14,757 bases of DNA from an uncultured bacterium. Its GTDB lineage: Bacteria; Hydrogenedentota; Hydrogenedentia; Hydrogenedentales; CAILVY01. Shown here piece after piece: positions 2,288-14,757 of this stretch. Below the pieces are notes generated by a model. The model had not been told where the DNA came from. It searched no databases and saw nothing but the letters and a program-made list of their open reading frames with translations. The position numbers and the translations under genes are program-made. Every line of letters starts with the position of its first letter. Positions within the stretch are counted from its first letter, which is position 1. Where the stretch lies: the NCBI GenBank assembly GCA_937951485.1, contig CALEDJ010000070.1, positions 1 through 14,757 of the forward strand, given 5' to 3'.

Positions 2288-3326
2288 GGTAGATTTCCTC
2301 CAGGATGGCGCGAATATCGTAGTCGTAACGCCAATCGGGATAGTGTGCCTGGAATTTACGCACATCGCTTATCCACCAGATATGATCGCCAATGCGGTTG
2401 TCCTCGCAATAGCGGACGTTCATCTTCCTGCCGGCGATTTCCTCGCACAGCGCGATCGCCTCCATCATCGAGCAATTGCTGTGGCGGCTGCCGCCGATGT
2501 TATAGACCTCGGCCACGCGCGGCGCCCGCGCCACCTCGGCGAAACACTTGATGAGGTCGTGGGCGTGGATATTGTCGCGTACCTGTTTGCCTTTGTACCC
2601 GAAAATACGGTATTCGCGACCGGTCATGGCGCACTTCATCAGATAGGATAGGAATCCGTGCAGTTCCGCACCGGCGTGCCCCGGCCCCGTCAGGCATCCC
2701 CCGCGGAAAATGGCCGTCTTCATGCCGAAATACAGGCCGTATTCCTGCACCATCACATCGGCGGCCACCTTCGACGCGCCGAATATCGAGTGCTTGCACT
2801 GGTCTATGGACATCGTTTCGTCAATGCCGTGCGCCGCATACGGGTGATTGGGATCCACTTCCCAGCGCGTCTCCATTTCAACCAGCGGCAGGCGGTTGGG
2901 CGCGTCGCCGTATACTTTGTTGGTGGAGGTGAAGATGAACACAGCGTCCGGCGCGTGGAGGCGGGTCAGTTCTAAGAGGTTCAGCGTGCCGACCGCGTTC
3001 ACGCCGAAATCCGTCAACGGTTCCCGGGCGGCCCAGTCGTGGCTCGGTTGCGCGGCCGTATGCACAATCAGGCGGATGTCCCCCGCACATTCCCGGAAAA
3101 GGCGGTCCATCGCGTTGAAGTCCCGGATGTCGGCAGTGTGATGCACATAATTGGCGTATTCCCCCACCAACTGCGCCGCCGACCAGCGCGTGGACGCCTC
3201 CTCCCCGAAAAAATACGCCCGCATGTCATTGTCAATGCCGACGACTGTGTCGCCTGTCGCCGCGAAATGCCGGACGGTCTCCGCCCCGATTAACCCGCCG
3301 GAACCTGTCACGATGACGACACCCAT
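2265..3326 (-). CDS. NAD-dependent sugar-nucleotide epimerase/dehydratase (extended SDR)
   Basis: A 353-residue extended short-chain dehydrogenase, close in character to CDP-paratose 2-epimerase-type proteins. The Rossmann motif TGSGGLIG spans residues 7-14, with an acidic GIDND (30-34) that selects NAD over NADP. The VHTAAQPSH strand (88-96), STNKVYG (134-140) and the substrate region FRGGCLTGP (207-215) are present. The catalytic YxxxK position reads FGASK (182-186): lysine is kept and tyrosine is replaced by phenylalanine. I recall this from related proteins, so it may be a subfamily trait. ATG 3326 is chosen over ATG 3344 and 3590 because GGGGAG lies ten bases upstream and the Rossmann strand begins immediately. 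It is first in a two-gene unit with the GT2 enzyme, pointing to synthesis and transfer of a modified sugar. Confidence 0.85.
2297..2301 (-). promoter_or_regulatory. Ribosome binding site deciding the GTG start
   Basis: GGAGG on the minus strand, within the last codons of the epimerase gene and nine bases before GTG at 2287. It supports the short start for the glycosyltransferase and coupled translation of the two genes. Confidence 0.7.
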
Positions 3327-3360
3327 ATAAATAAATCTCCCCATGATACAGTCGCGTCGC

Positions 3361-3391
3361 ATTCTATCCGAGTGTGGACGGCCGGTGTCAA
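3361..3391 (-). promoter_or_regulatory. Candidate sigma-70-type promoter of the epimerase/GT2 unit
   Basis: On the minus strand, TTGACA (3386-3391) is followed after 19 bases by TAGAAT (3361-3366). The predicted start is near 3354, about 28 bases before the ATG. The -35 is perfect and the -10 has one mismatch, but the spacer is two bases longer than ideal. Confidence 0.45.
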
Positions 3392-3394
3392 CCC

Positions 3395-3494
3395 AAGGCA
3401 TTTGCGAAATGGACTGTTTCTGCGCATAAGAACATGAAATATCCGGGATTTCAGATGGAACTGAGGTCCGTAACACCCATTTCGAAAATGCCTT
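3395..3494. repeat. 18-bp inverted repeat upstream of the epimerase promoter
   Basis: AAGGCATTTGCGAAATGG at 3395-3412 is matched in inverse at 3477-3494 with one mismatch. The 64-bp spacer contains a small GAAAT/ATTTC palindrome (3436-3452). The proximal arm begins four bases before the candidate -35, a position suited to a paired operator. This function is inferred only. Confidence 0.5.
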
Positions 3495-3589
3495 AACCCG
3501 CATGAGAAGCCCTGCTGCAATGACAGTTTTTTGATGCTGTCTGCGGCCGGTGTTACCATGGCCACGGTTGACAGTCAATCCATAATCCA

Positions 3590-3630
3590 CATCCCCCGGC
3601 GCTGCGCGCCACCCCCTTCAAAGGGGGATG
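3590..3630. repeat. CATCCCCC/GGGGGATG inverted repeat
   Basis: CATCCCCC (3590-3597) pairs with GGGGGATG (3623-3630), enclosing a GGCGC/GCGCC hairpin (3598-3610). An alternative hairpin is CCCCCTT/AAGGGGG (3612-3627). It resembles a dispersed intergenic element and lies between the divergent epimerase and membrane-protein genes. Confidence 0.5.
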
Positions 3631-3690
3631 CAAAAGGCCATATAGTGCGCCCCGACAGTCCATGCCATTCCGCTAAAGTGTTATCGGCTG

Positions 3691-3699
3691 TGTTATACT
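3691..3699 (+). promoter_or_regulatory. Candidate extended -10 promoter of the membrane-protein gene
   Basis: TGTTATACT gives an extended -10 (TGn followed by TATACT), with no good -35 at 17 bp. A start near 3706 would leave a leader of about 90 bases that holds both copies of the 22-bp repeat. Confidence 0.35.
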
Positions 3700-3703
3700 G
3701 CCA

Positions 3704-3786
3704 CCTTCACACGCATGGGGAACGGTACAGGTTACGGGCGCAGGAATTATCCGTTGACCTGACGCCTTCACACACATGGGGAACGG
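3704..3786 (+). repeat. 22-bp direct repeat pair in the leader of the membrane-protein gene
   Basis: CCTTCACACGCATGGGGAAC plus GG at 3704-3725 recurs at 3765-3786 with one mismatch, 61 bp apart. The second copy ends just before the start codon at 3795 and supplies part of the weak ribosome-binding GAACGGAG. It could be a duplicated leader or a regulatory site. Confidence 0.6.
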
Positions 3787-3794
3787 AGTTTTTG

Positions 3795-4871
3795 ATGAAA
3801 AAAGCGGTGCAGATCATTGTCGGCCTCGTCATCGGCGTCCTGCTCTTGTGGTGGGTGTTCCGAGATACGGACTGGGCCGAAGTGGGGACGGCGCTGGGTG
3901 CGGTGCATTGGGGCTGGCTGGCGGTGGCGACGCTGTTCGTGATCTTCAGTTTTGTCACCCGCATTCTGCGCTGGCGCTATATCGTGCGGACGGCGAAGCC
4001 GGTGTCCTTCCGCAGCATGTTCAGCGCGACCCAAATCGGGTTCATGGCGAATTTCATTCTGCCGGGCCGGGCCGGCGAGGTCATCCGCGCGCTGGTGCTC
4101 AGCCGCCTCGAAAAGATACCCTTTTCCAAGTGCTTCGCTTTTGTCGCCCTGGACCGGGTGACGGACCTCTTCGGCATGCTCGCGGCGATGCTGGTGGCCG
4201 TCTTGGCCTATCGCCCGGGCACAGCGGTGACCGTGGGACCGGAGGCGCACTTCCCCGACTGGGCCGCGCCGCTGTTGCATCCGCAGGCCATCCGCACGGC
4301 GGCGTTTTCCGCGGCCATATTCATGCTGGTCATTGTGGCGGCGTTTGCCGCGCTCTATCTGAACCAGCGGCTGGTGCTGCGCTGCACGGAACGGGTCATC
4401 GGGTTGATATCGCAGCGCATGGCGGCGCGCGTCACCGCCATGCTGGGGCACTTCGCCGAGGGCATGCACGTGTTCCGCTCGGCGGCGGATATGGCGAAGT
4501 CCCTGGGCTTCTCCCTGGTTACGTGGGGGTGCTTTTCGGTGACTTTCTGGACCCTGTTTTGGGCCTTCGGCTTGACCCTGCCCTGGTACACGCCGTTCTT
4601 CACGCTGTCGCTGGTGGCCGCCGTAATCAGCCTGCCCGGGGCGCCGGGCTTTGTCGGACAGTATCATGCGGCCATCTGGGCGGCCCTGCTCATTTGCAGT
4701 CCGGGCATCAACAGCAACGTCGTCCGCGCCGTCGCCATCATGGGACACCTGATCAATCTCGTGCCGGTGACGGTGGTGGGGTTGTATTGTCTTCAGATGG
4801 AGAAACTGGGTCTGATTGCCCTGCAGCGCGAAGGCGAGGCCGCGGAAACGGGGGACAAACCACAGGAATGA
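3795..4871 (+). CDS. YbhN/AglD-type integral membrane protein (LPG-synthase TM domain, UPF0104)
   Basis: A 358-residue protein with about eight hydrophobic segments, including residues 4-22, 38-57, 124-138, 168-187, 236-259, 268-282, 290-302 and 312-333. Hallmarks of the lysylphosphatidylglycerol synthase/AglD transmembrane family (PF03706) are visible: NFILPGRAGE (86-95), the conserved ALDR before a hydrophobic helix (118-121), and PGAPGFVGQ (281-289). The family is linked to lipid-linked glycan handling and often neighbours GT2 enzymes, as here. There is no C-terminal LPG synthase acyltransferase domain, so aminoacylation of phosphatidylglycerol is not implied. ATG 3795 starts directly with a basic MKK and a membrane helix, whereas the longer frame to 3531 reads through repeats. 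It converges with the response regulator gene 34 bases away. Confidence 0.85.
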   Translation: MKKAVQIIVGLVIGVLLLWWVFRDTDWAEVGTALGAVHWGWLAVATLFVIFSFVTRILRWRYIVRTAKPVSFRSMFSATQIGFMANFILPGRAGEVIRALVLSRLEKIPFSKCFAFVALDRVTDLFGMLAAMLVAVLAYRPGTAVTVGPEAHFPDWAAPLLHPQAIRTAAFSAAIFMLVIVAAFAALYLNQRLVLRCTERVIGLISQRMAARVTAMLGHFAEGMHVFRSAADMAKSLGFSLVTWGCFSVTFWTLFWAFGLTLPWYTPFFTLSLVAAVISLPGAPGFVGQYHAAIWAALLICSPGINSNVVRAVAIMGHLINLVPVTVVGLYCLQMEKLGLIALQREGEAAETGDKPQE

Positions 4872-4905
4872 CACCGTCGGTGCGCGGCTGTGGAAAGGCC
4901 GGGGC

Positions 4906-6210
4906 CTACAGGCCGAAGGATCGCAGTTTATAGATGAGATTGCGGCGGCTGATGCCCAGCATTGCGGCGGCGCGGGTTTTGTTGCCGCCGGTTTTCTCCA
5001 GCGCCTCCAGAATGGCGCGCCGCTGGATTTCCTGCATGTCGCCCACCAGCACGCCTTGCGGTTTCGCCCTGGGTTTTGCGCGCCGTGCCGCCTCCGGCAA
5101 GTCGGCAGGCAGCACCAACCCGCCCGCCGCCACAATCGCGGCGCGTTCCATGGCATTGCGCAACTCGCGGATATTCCCCGGCCAGTCATAATCCAGCAGG
5201 AGCCGCTGCGCGGCGGGCGCAAGGCGTTTGCGGAAAGGCTGTAGAAAGCGTTCGGCAAGGGGCAGAATGTCATCGGCGCGTTCGCGCAGCGGCGGGATGG
5301 CGATCGGGAACACGTTGATCCGGAAAAAGAGGTCTTCGCGGAAACGCCCCGTGCGCACTTCTTCCTCGAGATTGCGGTTGGTGGCCGCAATCACGCGCAC
5401 ATCCACCCGGCGTTCCTCATCGCCGCCGACGCGACGATAGGTCCCCGTCTCAAGGATGCGGAGCAGTTTCGGCTGCACACTCAGCGGCAATTCGCCCACT
5501 TCATCCAGAAACAGCGTGCCGCCGTCGGCGGATGAAAAACGGCCGTCGCGCGCTTCGGTCGCGCCGGTGAAAGCGCCTTTTTCATGGCCGAAAAGTTCAC
5601 TCTCCACCAGCGATTCCGGCAGGCTCGCACAGTCCACGGGGATCAGCGCCTTGGCGGCCCGTGCGCTCGTCTGGTGAATAAACCGCGCCACGACCTCCTT
5701 GCCCGTGCCGCTCTCGCCGAGGAGCAACACCGTGGCGTCGGTCGGGGCCGCTTGGGCCGCCTGTCGGAAGACCTGGCGCATGGCCTCGCTCTCCGCGACA
5801 ATGTCCTCCGGCAGCGCCATCGGTGGATCACTGCCGCGATTTGCGCCCACGCCCAGCGTATCCTCGATCACCGCGATGAGTTCGTCGAGGTCAATGGGCT
5901 TTTCCAGGTAATCGGCCGCGCCCTGCTTGATGGCGGCCACGGCGTCGCGCACATCAATGTACGCGGTGAGCAGAATCACCGGCAGGGCGGGGCGCATTTC
6001 ACACACGCGCTTCAGCACTTCCATGCCGCCCATGCCGGGCATGCGCACATCGAGCAGCATGAGGTCGCAGTCCCCGACGGCGTCGAGGGCCTCGCGGCCA
6101 TCGTCGCAAAGGACGCACGCATACCCCGCGCGCGTCAGGGCGTTTTCCAGCAACGCGCGCTGCGCGGGATCATCGTCCACCACCGCGATTCTCGGCGCTT
6201 CGTCGGTCAT
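4906..6210 (-). CDS. NtrC/ZraR-type sigma-54-dependent response regulator
   Basis: A 434-residue activator with all three NtrC modules. The receiver domain (about 6-120) has acidic residues in VVDDD (10-14), phospho-acceptor Asp54 in LLDVRMPG, and Lys104 in EKP. The AAA+ domain (about 136-365) has Walker A GESGTGKE (165-172), the sigma-54-contacting GAFTGA loop (212-217) and Walker B GGTLFLDE (230-237). The C-terminal Fis-type helix-turn-helix (about 396-432) contains [16 protein letters not shown]. It would be phosphorylated by the kinase encoded just upstream and open sigma-54 promoters, probably including the one at 8589-8603. ATG 6210 is chosen because AGGA lies six bases upstream and the receiver begins at once, while the frame upstream runs into a TGTCCAACC microrepeat. 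The domain order is complete and nothing is missing. Confidence 0.93.
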
Positions 6211-6239
6211 GTGATTTCCTGTGCTTGCGCCATGCGACT

Positions 6240-6279
6240 TGTCCAACCTGTCCAACCTGTCCGACCTGTCTGCCCTGTC
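6240..6279. repeat. 9-bp tandem repeat between kinase and regulator genes
   Basis: Units TGTCCAACC, TGTCCAACC, TGTCCGACC and TGTCTGCCC, then a partial TGTC. They occupy much of the 97-bp gap between the kinase stop and regulator start. A related array (TCTGTCCGAA type) lies at 11836-11865. The repeat lies inside the operon, so it is transcribed. Confidence 0.7.
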
Positions 6280-6307
6280 AATTTCCCATTGCGCCGCCGG
6301 ATCTGCG

Positions 6308-7657
6308 CTATCCTATCGCACGCAGGCCGTCGAGCGACACCTCGGTGCCGCGCCCGGGTTCGGAGGTGATGCGCAATCGCCATCCGGACGCCCGGGCCGC
6401 GTCTTCGACCAGCGCGAGGCCCAAGCCGGCCCCGCCGGGAAAACGGGAGAAATACGGTTCCGTCACATGGGGGAGGTCTTTGGCGTCAATGCCGCAGCCT
6501 GTGTCGCGGACGACGATGCAAACGGTATCGCCACTCCGTGTTGCGGTCACGAGAACACGGTCATTCTTTTGGCAGGCGTGCAGTGCGTTGATTATCAGGT
6601 TGAAAACAGCCTGCCGGAGCAGTTCCGGGTCCGCGTGGATGCTGCATTCAGGCGCATCGAGTTCCAGGCGGACGCCCCGGTCCGCTGCTTCATGACGAAG
6701 AATCCCCACGATCTTGTCGAGAAAAAGGTTCAGGCGAATCGCTTCCGGTTTGGGCGATTTGGGGCGGGACAGCCGCAAAAATGCGTCAATCCGGCCAACG
6801 ACCCGGTCACATTCGTCCACGATATGCCGCGCAGATGTCCGGATTTCTTCAGGCATTGCCGCGTTTTCTTCCATGTGCTGCGCCATGCCCCGGATGACGC
6901 TCAGGGGATTCTTGGTTTCGTGGGTAAGCCCCGCTCCCATGCGCGACAGTTTTTCGAGATGGGCGGCCCGCTCCGCGGCGATGGCCAGTTCCGTTTGCAA
7001 CGCCGCATGACGGCGGCGCGCCAGCATCCCCTGCAAACCGAGCAAACCCGCCAGCACAATCAGCAACCACCCAATCACGGCATAGCGCCGGGCGGCGGCA
7101 ATGCCTGCCTGGTATTCCGACAGGTCTAACAGCACGGAAATCCGGTGCGGTCCCGGCGGCATCATCATCCATCCGCCATGTTCCTGCGGACCGCGCGGCC
7201 CGCCGCGCCGTCCCATGGGAAAAGGCCGCTCCTGTAATGAAACCACACGCATCCAAGTGAACGCGGCGGCAGTGTCGGGCTGCGCTCCCGCGTCATCAGG
7301 CGCCGTCGCGTCAACGATGTTTTGTCCGTCCTGCGTTTGAACGCGCACGGACAATACGCCGGGCGCCCCGGCGATGCCTTCCAGGATTTCCACCAGGCGT
7401 TCGGGATGATAGCGGTTGTTGCGCAGGTGTGCGCCGACGATGCTTTGCACCACATCGAGAATCAGGTCTGCGCGTTCCTCCAGCAGGCGTTGCTGCCGCT
7501 GTACGGCGCCCCGGTAAGCATACAACACGACTGCCGCGCCGATAATCAATACCAGGGTCCCCGAGACGATGGCGGGCATTTTTGCCCGCGTGTTTCCGAA
7601 AAAATGCGATACGGCCCGCCGTATTCCGGCGAGCCGTATCTCTGGTGCTGCGGTCAT
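6308..7657 (-). CDS. ZraS-like membrane sensor histidine kinase
   Basis: A 449-residue kinase with a first membrane helix at about 28-48, a periplasmic sensor domain (about 50-190) and a second helix at 192-212. The cytoplasmic HisKA part carries the H-box GLTHETKNPLS, with phospho-acceptor His246. The ATPase part has N-box NLIINALHA (353-361), G1 DTGCGI (385-390) and the flexible-lid G2 GGAGLGL (408-414). The H-box context and two-helix layout resemble ZraS, the zinc/envelope-stress kinase. The periplasmic domain has an unusual Gly/Pro/Met/His loop around 148-171, including QEHGGWMMMPPGPH, which could bind metal. It is cotranscribed with the secreted repeat protein (19-bp gap) and with its regulator. 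The specific signal cannot be read from sequence. Confidence 0.9.
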   Translation of the reverse strand: MTAAPEIRLAGIRRAVSHFFGNTRAKMPAIVSGTLVLIIGAAVVLYAYRGAVQRQQRLLEERADLILDVVQSIVGAHLRNNRYHPERLVEILEGIAGAPGVLSVRVQTQDGQNIVDATAPDDAGAQPDTAAAFTWMRVVSLQERPFPMGRRGGPRGPQEHGGWMMMPPGPHRISVLLDLSEYQAGIAAARRYAVIGWLLIVLAGLLGLQGMLARRRHAALQTELAIAAERAAHLEKLSRMGAGLTHETKNPLSVIRGMAQHMEENAAMPEEIRTSARHIVDECDRVVGRIDAFLRLSRPKSPKPEAIRLNLFLDKIVGILRHEAADRGVRLELDAPECSIHADPELLRQAVFNLIINALHACQKNDRVLVTATRSGDTVCIVVRDTGCGIDAKDLPHVTEPYFSRFPGGAGLGLALVEDAARASGWRLRITSEPGRGTEVSLDGLRAIG

Positions 7658-7676
7658 TCAGCGGGGTGTTCCTGAG

Positions 7677-8504
7677 TTATCGCGCGCCATTGCCTGCGCC
7701 TTGCGGCGCATTTCGCAGGCCGCGTCCAAGTCCTTGTCCTTGGCCATAGCCCAAGCCTTGACCTCGACCCAAGCCCCGGCCCTGACCAACTCCCTGGCCT
7801 TGGCCGTAGCCCAAACCCTGGCCCATGCCCGGGGCGCGACCGACGCCCTGCCGCTGGCCGAGTCCCTGGCCTTGGCGGCGGCCCGGCGTACGGTTGGCGC
7901 ACGATGGGGGACGGTTGTCGCAGATGCCGTCGCCATCGGCGTCCACAAAGCGGTCATTGATGCCATCGCCATCGGCATCCATGAAGTTGTCGCAGATGCC
8001 GTCGCCGTCGGCGTCCACAAAGTTCGGGCTGTTGCCCCGGCCCTGCCAGCGGCCATAGACGCGCTGACCCTGGGCCATCCCGGCGCCGCGCCGCGCACAT
8101 TGCGCGGGGCGGTGATCGCAGATGCCGTCGCCGTCGGCATCCACGAAGTTGTCGCAGATGCCGTCGCCGTCCGCATCCTCAAAGCGGGGGCATGCGCCCA
8201 AACCCTGGCCTTGGCCGAAGCCCCGGCCCTGGCCCAGTCCGAGCCGCCGGCCTTTGCCCCGGCCCATGCCGAAGCCCCGGCCGGGCGCATTGCCGCATGG
8301 CCACAAATCGCACGCGCCATCGCCGTCGGCATCCACGAAGTTGTCGCAGATGCCGTCGCCGTCCGCGTCAACGAATCCGCCGCGCGGTGTCGGCGTGGTC
8401 TGGCCGGTGTTCGCCGCAACCGGCCGCTGCGCCTGCGCCACCGCAAGCATTCCGGTCAACAGCCACGCCGTCGTCATCAGGGCGAGCATTTTCCTGGTGT
8501 TCAT
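7677..8504 (-). CDS. Secreted Gly-rich protein with seven DADGDG calcium-binding-type repeats
   Basis: A 275-residue exported protein with a signal peptide at residues 1-25, cleaved after AQA. Seven DADGDG(I/A)xD loops occur in three clusters (44-70, 108-136, 162-202). Their spaced aspartates fit the calcium-binding loops of EF-hand, dockerin or thrombospondin type 3 repeats. Each cluster ends with a cysteine a few residues on (WPC, AQC, PSC), and most loops carry a cysteine, suggesting disulfides. Between and after the clusters are low-complexity GQGLG/GRG linkers (72-104, 138-158, 207-264). AAAGGAG six bases before the ATG supports the start. It is the first gene of the kinase-regulator operon, the position a periplasmic accessory or sensed partner would take, as ZraP is with ZraSR. 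It has no sequence resemblance to ZraP. Calcium binding is inferred. Confidence 0.8.
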   Translation of the reverse strand: MNTRKMLALMTTAWLLTGMLAVAQAQRPVAANTGQTTPTPRGGFVDADGDGICDNFVDADGDGACDLWPCGNAPGRGFGMGRGKGRRLGLGQGRGFGQGQGLGACPRFEDADGDGICDNFVDADGDGICDHRPAQCARRGAGMAQGQRVYGRWQGRGNSPNFVDADGDGICDNFMDADGDGINDRFVDADGDGICDNRPPSCANRTPGRRQGQGLGQRQGVGRAPGMGQGLGYGQGQGVGQGRGLGRGQGLGYGQGQGLGRGLRNAPQGAGNGAR

Positions 8505-8555
8505 GACCCACTCCTTTCTCAGCCCTTCGCGGGCTATTTTGCGCTTTCGATTGTC

Positions 8556-8577
8556 CGCCGCGCAATGTTGCGCGGCG
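8556..8577 (-). promoter_or_regulatory. 10-bp perfect hairpin at the predicted operon transcript start
   Basis: CGCCGCGCAA and TTGCGCGGCG pair perfectly around a two-base centre. Counting from the -12 element, transcription is predicted to start near 8577, at the base of this stem, so the mRNA would begin with a hairpin. A second small stem (AGCCC/GGGCT, 8521-8535) lies before the ribosome binding site. Confidence 0.5.
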
Positions 8578-8588
8578 TCTAGAGCATG

Positions 8589-8603
8589 GCCAGAACCATG
8601 CCA
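8589..8603 (-). promoter_or_regulatory. Candidate sigma-54 (-24/-12) promoter of the sensor operon
   Basis: The minus strand reads TGGCATGGTTCTGGC. Compared with the consensus TGGCACG-N4-TTGC it keeps the invariant GG and GC dinucleotides at the required ten-base separation. There is one change in the -24 element (C to T, which is tolerated) and one in the -12 element (T to G). It lies 85 bases before the first gene of an operon that encodes its own sigma-54 activator, which makes it credible. Confidence 0.6.
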
Positions 8604-8610
8604 GGCGTCC

Positions 8611-8636
8611 GGAAAGGCATTTTCCGCATGGCGGAA
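8611..8636. promoter_or_regulatory. Overlapping palindromes upstream of the -24/-12 site
   Basis: TTCCGC-ATG-GCGGAA (8622-8636) is a perfect palindrome. An overlapping GGAAA-N5-TTTCC (8611-8625) sits on its left. They lie about 8-30 bases upstream of the candidate sigma-54 promoter. This is closer than most enhancer sites, but it is the only dyad there that could bind the operon's own activator. Confidence 0.35.
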
Positions 8637-8695
8637 GTGCGGGTCATGTCCGCCAATTCATTGCGTTGCAGGCATATCCGGAGATTTTTGAGATG

Positions 8696-8723
8696 AAAAA
8701 ACGGTGTTGCAGGACGCAAACCG
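8696..8723 (-). terminator. Rho-independent terminator of the thymidylate-synthase-like gene
   Basis: On the minus strand, CGGTTTGC, a five-base loop GTCCT, then GCAACACCG, with one bulged base, followed directly by six T. It lies about 77 bases past the stop codon at 8800 and separates this gene from the sigma-54 operon downstream. Confidence 0.7.
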
Positions 8724-8799
8724 AGCCTATGGGAAGCCCTGCAAGGATGTTACACCCCCGCGCATCTCTGCAAAGATTGCAGCGTAGGGGCGGCGCGCT

Positions 8800-9792
8800 T
8801 CAGGGCAGGAAGGCGCCGGAGGCCATGTCGGCGATGAGTTTTCCGCCGAGGGCCACGGCTTGGGGCGGGAAGCGCCATTCTTGTATGCCGCGCTCGGAGA
8901 GCAGCGCCTCGAGTTGCGGGATGATAAGCATGTCGCGGGCCATTTCGCTGGTCAACGAACGGGCGACATAGGCGTCCTCGTCAAAGGTGTCGAAGAAACT
9001 TTTGAGTCCGCGTTCGGGATCGCCGCCGACCGCGCCGAAGTCCTGCCCGTAGATGTGCAGGGACGCGGCGTAATCGGCATAACTGCCGACACGCACCGTC
9101 CGCCCGGTCATTTCCGCGAGCCGTTCCGCGATCACCTTTTGCAGGCAGGTCAGCCCGATGATGTTGTCCGGCCACGCCTTGTACAAATCCCGCGATCGCC
9201 ACATGGTGTTCATGTTCAGGACGAGGTTGCCGTCAGCGTCTTCCGGACACCTGAACTGCACCTCGCGCAGGCAGGGGATGTCTTCGGTCAGGTAGGGGTC
9301 AATGTTGGGTACGGCAGTGGTGGCGACGGCGCGGCGGGTGTGCGGCGTTTTCGCGAGGCGTTCCAAGGCAAGCGCGATCTGGTCCACGGTGCCGCCGTCC
9401 ACATCGGGGTGCGCGAAGAGGCGCTGGTGATACGTGTAGGGCCATTCCCGGGCCGACAACTCGCCGGTGAGCGCCTCCTTGAGTTTGTCCATGGACAGCA
9501 CCATATGGTCCTTGATGCCCATGATTTCGGCGATATACGCGCCGATCTCGCAGAAGGATACAGGGGGATATCGGGGTTGGTTGAAGGGGTCGGTGATCTC
9601 GACGAGCACCCGCGCGTCGCGGCTCGGCGGGTCAATGAACGCGCCTTTGCCGTCCTTGCGGTCGTATTCGGTGCGGATGGCCAGGCCGTGCTCCCATACC
9701 GCTTTCATGGCGCGGAAGTGCGCCCGCGGCAGCGAATCCGCCACAATGTGCAACGATGGAATCCGGCCTTCCCCTCTTGCGTCTTCCTGCAT
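8800..9792 (-). CDS. Thymidylate synthase family protein (divergent)
   Basis: A 330-residue protein with the thymidylate synthase/dCMP hydroxymethylase active-site pattern. It has a phosphate-binding TRRAV (152-156), a candidate catalytic cysteine in DIPCLREVQF (Cys174), WRSRD (198-202) supplying the conserved Arg, Ser and Asp, and PDNI (208-211). Asn210 in PDNI matches the asparagine that favours dUMP over dCMP. HIY (246-248) closes the set. The usual PPCH reads IPCL and the N-terminus is not that of bacterial ThyA, so it may be an archaeal/phage-type enzyme or a paralogue with another pyrimidine substrate. ATG 9792 is preferred: GGAGGG ends nine bases upstream, whereas the TTG at 9798 would be only three bases away. 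It is a single-gene unit with its own terminator. Confidence 0.8.
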   Translation of the reverse strand: MQEDARGEGRIPSLHIVADSLPRAHFRAMKAVWEHGLAIRTEYDRKDGKGAFIDPPSRDARVLVEITDPFNQPRYPPVSFCEIGAYIAEIMGIKDHMVLSMDKLKEALTGELSAREWPYTYHQRLFAHPDVDGGTVDQIALALERLAKTPHTRRAVATTAVPNIDPYLTEDIPCLREVQFRCPEDADGNLVLNMNTMWRSRDLYKAWPDNIIGLTCLQKVIAERLAEMTGRTVRVGSYADYAASLHIYGQDFGAVGGDPERGLKSFFDTFDEDAYVARSLTSEMARDMLIIPQLEALLSERGIQEWRFPPQAVALGGKLIADMASGAFLP

Positions 9793-9852
9793 GGTCAATT
9801 ACCCTCCGCGTTTGTTGTATCTATCGTCATCATCTTTGTCCATTGTTGTCAA

Positions 9853-10002
9853 AAAAATGTTGTGGGCAACCCAGGTATCATGCCCGGAACCTTTGGGAAA
9901 ATCCGCTGAATCACGATGGCGCCAGAGGTTTTTTCCGCGGGCAAACTATTTACCGAAAGTTCCTGACGAATCGTTGACCCGTTGTTCATGCGTGCCCCAT
10001 CT
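9853..10002. other. Intergenic DNA between the PurF-like and thymidylate-synthase-like genes
   Basis: No gene-like frame or strong promoter pair was found. A perfect TTGACA (minus, 9847-9852) faces the thymidylate-synthase-like gene, but no good -10 lies at 16-19 bp. The rest of the 401-bp gap is the repeat pair and terminator listed separately. Confidence 0.4.
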
Positions 10003-10113
10003 TTCCCCCCCTCACCCCACCCCTCTCCCGGAGGGAGAGGGCGTTTGTGACGAGACGCGGGGAGTGCCGCCGCTCCCTCTCCCTCCGGGAGAGGGGTGGG
10101 GTGAGGGGGGGAA
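10003..10113. repeat. Perfect 39-bp inverted repeat pair
   Basis: Bases 10003-10041 and 10075-10113 are exact reverse complements over 39 bases, around a 33-bp spacer. Each arm contains a CTCCCGGAGGGAG-type hairpin plus the TCACCCCACCCC tail seen also at 78-113. As a pair they could form a very long stem or mark two opposed copies of the dispersed element. They lie downstream of the PurF-like gene. Confidence 0.85.
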
Positions 10114-14591: not shown

Positions 14592-14607
14592 CCCAAGGAG
14601 AGGCCCC

Positions 14608-14757
14608 TGTTGTGGCCGGCCACCCGACCTTTGTTGTGGCCGGTCTCCTGACCGTGCCTTTGTTGTGGCCGGCCACCCGACCTTTGTTGTGGCCGGTCTC
14701 CTGACTTTTGTTGTGGCCGGTCTCCTGACCGTGCCACAGCCCCGACCGAAGGTCTCC
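14608..14757. repeat. 24/29-bp tandem repeat array at the window edge
   Basis: Core TGTTGTGGCCGG starts at 14608, 14632, 14661, 14685 and 14709. Successive distances are 24, 29, 24 and 24 bases, with alternating tails CCACCCGACCT and TCTCCTGACCGTGCC. The first four units form a 53-bp higher-order repeat. The array starts 17 bases after the NagB-like stop, and variant units continue to the end of the window. Unit spacing and variability do not fit CRISPR. It is probably a dispersed intergenic repeat, and an RNA role is unknown. Confidence 0.75.

Follow-up and report, generated by a model that had tools for sequence, protein, structure and literature searches.

ZraPSR of Escherichia coli and Salmonella is a zinc-activated envelope stress system. 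Partners of the CpxP/Spy type, as in CpxPAR, are small secreted proteins that are made under the control of the accompanying two-component system. Even in E. coli there are competing views on what ZraS-type kinases sense and on the role of the secreted partner, and ZraR has few targets and a debated physiological role (PMC7657598). Here we analysed a stretch of 14,757 nucleotides from an uncultured bacterium of the Hydrogenedentota (hereafter, the window), in which a gene for a secreted protein with DxDGDG loops, which we call the leader, precedes a ZraS-like kinase gene and a ZraR-like regulator gene. We assign a probability of about 0.6 to the reading that these genes form a sigma-54-dependent system of three components that senses the envelope and works like ZraPSR, with feedback of the leader on the kinase. 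Among the open-access papers to which the literature search extended, we found none that connects ZraSR-like systems with DxDGDG proteins or with DUF2202.

Gene organization

The three genes lie in tandem on the minus strand, and their order and coordinates agree with the original prediction. The leader gene (8504-7677) encodes a secreted protein of 275 amino acids, followed by the genes for a membrane histidine kinase of 449 amino acids (7657-6308) and a response regulator of 434 amino acids (6210-4906). The leader stop codon and the kinase ATG are 19 bp apart, the gap between kinase and regulator is 97 bp, and the downstream neighbour, a gene for an LPG-synthase-like transmembrane protein, is convergent. 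Because of this short spacing and the convergent next gene, we treat the three genes as one operon. The upstream neighbour, on the same strand, encodes a thymidylate-synthase-like protein. The source genome carries a single copy of rpoN.

Several repeats were observed in the window. The gap between kinase and regulator contains a short tandem repeat, TGTCCAACC/TGTCCGACC, at 6236-6285. A GC-rich palindromic, REP-like repeat (CCCTCTCCC..GGGAGAGGGGTGGGGTGAGGGG) occurs as one perfect inverted repeat of 39 nt at 10003-10113, with a third copy at 78-111, and repeats of 24-27 nt (TTTGTTGTGGCCGGTCTCCTGAC) stand in tandem at the window end (14603-14729).

The kinase and the response regulator

The kinase has HisKA and HATPase_c domains far above the Pfam cut-offs and an H-box, HETKNP, with His246. 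Over its full length, it is matched best by the NCBIfam model for ZraS (E 3e-53, residues 25-442, below the equivalog cut-off), it shares 26% identity with E. coli ZraS over 445 columns, and its top PDB match is the ZraS cytoplasmic domain (9jfj). The homology to ZraS thus spans both the sensor and the catalytic parts, and the predicted likeness of the kinase to ZraS extends over its full length. The regulator, which adjoins the kinase gene, consists of a receiver, a Sigma54_activat (AAA+) domain with the GAFTGA motif and a Fis-type helix-turn-helix, all far above the Pfam cut-offs. AtoC, NtrC and ZraR are its leading NCBIfam models, and its 47% identity to E. coli ZraR, over the full length, bears out its assignment as a ZraR/NtrC-like activator.

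The leader protein and its loops

The leader has a hydrophobic, signal-peptide-like N-terminus (read by eye), 10 cysteines, and Gly/Gln/Arg-rich spacers and tail. The seven calcium-type loops that had been claimed for it were counted exactly: DADGDGxxD occurs seven times, at residues 46, 58, 110, 122, 164, 176 and 188, with a cysteine inside six of the seven loops. No domain was found in the window leader with Pfam. It had no match to the ZraP (Spy/CpxP-like helical) family in Pfam or NCBIfam, and the LTxxQ motif is absent from it. The predicted structure is disordered (pLDDT 45) and uninformative on the fold. Two other candidate relationships were rejected: matches to leader paralogues in the same genome cover only the Gly-rich part and were dismissed as low complexity, and PDB sequence matches were dismissed as chance, low-complexity hits.

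The loops raise the question of a dedicated calcium sensor-buffer, in which they would bind Ca2+ and the operon would answer to calcium; this reading overlaps with the others. All seven have the DxDxDGxxD pattern and, as DxDGDGxxD, agree with an EF-type loop in its first nine positions. However, the window leader gave no match to the Pfam EF-hand, dockerin or TSP3 models at E up to 10; weak matches of these types, below the cut-off, were seen only in the leaders of two other loci (L109 and L117). Moreover, nearly every loop contains a cysteine, which does not belong to a standard Ca2+ loop and points to chemistry of thiols, disulfides or soft metals, and the loops are eroded to DTTGDG in L093 and wholly replaced in some orthologous operons. 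We regard a dedicated calcium function as unlikely.

Conservation of the operon in related genomes

Searches of 60 relatives yielded 34 orthologous kinase genes in 33 genomes, the window included. The regulator gene follows the kinase on every contig of sufficient length. A secreted leader lies directly upstream in 26 of the 34 loci. This leader is of the loop-repeat type at 19 loci (degenerate in one, G007), so that the three-gene order, whose recurrence in related genomes had been set beforehand as a check, recurs across the order. The other genes found upstream are three for DUF2202 ferritin-like proteins with Gly/Arg-rich tails (L064, L067 and L077), three for Gly/Arg-rich proteins without loops and one for a DUF6448 protein. 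At the remaining loci, the kinase is preceded by a sulfatase gene (one locus) or by folD (five), with no leader adjacent, or its upstream side is at a contig end or was unread (two). The loop protein is therefore the commonest partner of the kinase, but not the sole one. Because DUF2202, DUF6448 and Gly/Arg-rich proteins also fill the slot, the calcium-type loops are not an essential part of it; the usual common element of the leaders is a secretion signal with a Gly/Arg/Gln-rich segment. One contig (L071 in G055, 2880-9932) carries the leader-kinase-regulator operon twice, in convergent orientation, with a second leader in tandem in the first copy.

Sigma-54 promoter and enhancer-like dyad

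The candidate -24/-12 promoter of the window, TGGCATGGTTCTGGCC (8588-8603, minus strand), precedes the leader ATG by 99 bp. Considered alone, it does not exceed chance: the window contains 22 comparable matches, where shuffles predict 30, and P is 0.09 within the upstream region of the leader. Because these single-window statistics are not significant, they were discarded as standalone evidence. In each of the 23 scored loci, a sigma-54 site precedes the secreted leader by 62-113 bp, and each of the 22 homologous loci has a better site than the window, whose promoter is the weakest of the set. The candidate promoter is thus weak, but its position is shared with the 22 homologous loci, and it is through this comparison only that it becomes credible. 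In the stretches searched before kinase or leader, no comparable site was found for the kinase genes that follow folD, and no good one at the two homologues with a DUF6448 or sulfatase gene upstream; L062 has one 352 bp upstream.

Side-by-side comparison of the upstream regions revealed an element additional to those of the original prediction, the dyad TGCAAAnTTTGCA (TGCA-N5-TGCA). In most loci it starts 73-76 bp before the promoter TGGC, and further TTGCAG half-sites usually follow. The copy in the window, TGCCTGCAACGCA (8662-8674, minus strand; at -71 from TGGC), keeps only TGC/GCA and does not rise above shuffles (P 0.15 for the best match in the region). It is degenerate although the recognition helix of the regulator (13 residues) is identical to that of most homologues. 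Because promoter and dyad are here the most degenerate of the set, the case for regulation at the window rests on the homologues.

A composite pattern (dyad, 58-65 bp, promoter) was run over 68 genomes of the phylum, all of one order, and gave 18 matches versus one for a reversed-pattern control. Fifteen of the 18 lie before this leader gene. The match in G060, which came from the pattern alone, falls on the contig of L098, upstream of leader, kinase and regulator. One further match (G054) precedes a secreted-protein gene cut by the contig end. The last two fall within coding sequence, the G003 one inside an open frame and the G062 one, similar in sequence, apparently so. Because the matches are near-exclusive to the leader, the candidate regulon comprises a single operon in each genome. 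The regulator may bind the dyad. It could be argued that an unrelated repeat protein happens to precede a kinase-regulator pair in the window, where the promoter is not significant alone. However, the same order is found in many genomes of one order, with promoter and dyad conserved; this synteny refutes chance neighbourhood, to which we give practically no weight.

Exchange and unlinking of the leader

Mapped on the tree of the kinases, leaders of the loop type are present in both halves. DUF2202 leaders were acquired a single time (support 100/100), and the kinases linked to folD form part of one supported group. Four of the five genomes with folD at the head (G041, G043, G045 and G057), and also G038, have a loop or Gly/Arg-rich leader elsewhere that has kept its sigma-54 site; the kinase of G038 is on another contig. 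The leader of L094 was excluded from this set because it runs off its contig. The dyad is present at -73 to -85 in G038, G041 and G057 (close to -74 in two of them, -85 in the third), a copy lies farther upstream in G045, and none was found in G043. As the unlinked leaders keep their sigma-54 sites, promoter sharing has outlived linkage.

Loop-repeat secreted proteins also occur outside Hydrogenedentota, in Desulfuromonas relatives, Chloroflexi, Firmicutes, Slackia, Methanosarcinales and others. A few are encoded within unrelated two-component clusters. In Ignavibacteria (L109 and L121), a loop-repeat protein with a T9SS sorting tail is encoded between a kinase and an NtrC-family regulator, which is a separate occurrence of the same design. 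A Chloroflexi cluster has the order leader-OmpR regulator-kinase, and in Lachnospiraceae (L102 and L162) a loop-repeat protein with a C-terminal PG_binding_1 domain directly follows a regulator-kinase pair. Two-component genes adjoin the loop proteins at about 6 of some 75 such loci; a general enrichment was dismissed on this count, and the individual clusters alone are claimed. Because most of these proteins have no neighbouring kinase, the loops represent a general module with other uses.

These observations bear on the possibility that the leader is output only, that is, a secreted protein with a metal-binding or protective role, or a component of the surface or matrix, that sends no signal back to the kinase. 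The partner folds are mutually unrelated (loop repeats, ferritin-like DUF2202 and DUF6448), and this is more in keeping with an exchangeable effector than with a specific ligand. The unlinked leaders retain their promoter, and the T9SS tails and the peptidoglycan-binding domain suggest a surface location. On the other hand, in most genomes the leader is the first gene of the operon that also encodes the kinase, and the kinase sensor loop resembles its own leader beyond other leaders, as described below. We consider an output-only leader possible but somewhat improbable.

Gly/Arg-rich segment and kinase sensor loop

The periplasmic domain of the kinase carries a Gly/Arg/Pro-rich loop, MGRRGGPRGPQEHGGWMMMPPGPH (7145-7216, minus strand; about residues 148-171). 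In the predicted kinase model (pTM 0.38), the loop lies between strands of this domain, with low confidence for the stretch 144-161. The orthologous kinases carry GxGRG/Pro-rich loops at this position, where E. coli ZraS has APWRHGMHNMPRCNGK, and the C-terminus of E. coli ZraP, GIPRGAGMGMGYGGCGGGGHMGMGHW, is likewise Gly-rich. By local similarity, the kinase loop is closer to its own leader than to other leaders (0 of 5000 permutations, and 1 of 5000 after thinning of relatives; L077 was left out of the set), while another stretch of the same sensor gave P 0.59. Low-complexity composition and relatedness could be a partial cause of the resemblance. Separately, the sensor loop of the L077 kinase was seen to contain GMGRG repeats much like those of the L077 leader.

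These data permit a broader proposal, which we offer tentatively. A ZraSR-type chassis would take an interchangeable secreted partner, and the kinase, by way of a co-varying, low-complexity Gly/Arg/Cys sensor loop, would share with it a metal- or surface-binding segment through which the two recognize each other or the same ligand. The DxDGDGxCD protein would then be a new kinase-partner family, which in Ignavibacteria, Chloroflexi and Firmicutes also neighbours two-component systems.

Proposed mechanism

In the favoured reading, that of an envelope-sensing operon with leader feedback, a periplasmic signal, probably a metal ion or envelope damage, would reach the ZraS-like kinase, which would phosphorylate the ZraR-like activator. 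In the homologues, the activator would bind the dyad about 74 bp upstream of the -24/-12 promoter, and the activated promoter would drive a single operon headed by the secreted partner. This protein would accumulate outside the membrane, bind the ion or damaged material via its loops and Gly/Arg/Cys-rich segments, and may tune the kinase by feedback. The feedback step is assumed by analogy with that of ZraP, reportedly described by Appia-Ayme in 2012 (cited in PMC7657598).

A series of operons with the same chassis and promoter separates what is constant (the Gly/Arg-rich segment and the dyad) from what is exchangeable (the loops and the ferritin-like domain), and this natural partner series makes the partner's role testable through module swaps. 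The dyad is a candidate enhancer motif for a phylum in which little regulation is known.

Comparison with known systems

DxDxDG-type loops resembling those of the leader are described for EfhP of Pseudomonas aeruginosa and for CaBP of Caulobacter, which is periplasmic (PMC9132961, PMC13171946). The window leader differs from both in having no EF-hand Pfam match, in the cysteine within most loops and in its place in a ZraSR-like operon. Like the partner in CpxPAR, the leader is a small secreted protein that accompanies a two-component system, but the window leader lacks LTxxQ, and the Hydrogenedentota regulator is a sigma-54 activator, not of the OmpR type.

ZraPSR is alike in the kinase (26% identity), the sigma-54 activator (47%), the type of the candidate promoter, a secreted partner with a Gly-rich, Cys-bearing segment and a very small predicted regulon. 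The partner had been described as unlike ZraP. This holds for the fold (the window leader has DxDGDG loops instead of the helical Spy/CpxP-type core of ZraP) but not for the Gly-rich, Cys-bearing segment, which is common to the ZraP C-terminus. The leader is also co-directional and first in its operon, whereas zraP is divergent from zraSR, and the dyad is TGCAAAnTTTGCA in contrast to GAGTAAAAATGACTCGC in the E. coli zraP-zraS gap. By analogy, the Hydrogenedentota operon would work like ZraPSR, with a leader that is not a member of the ZraP family.
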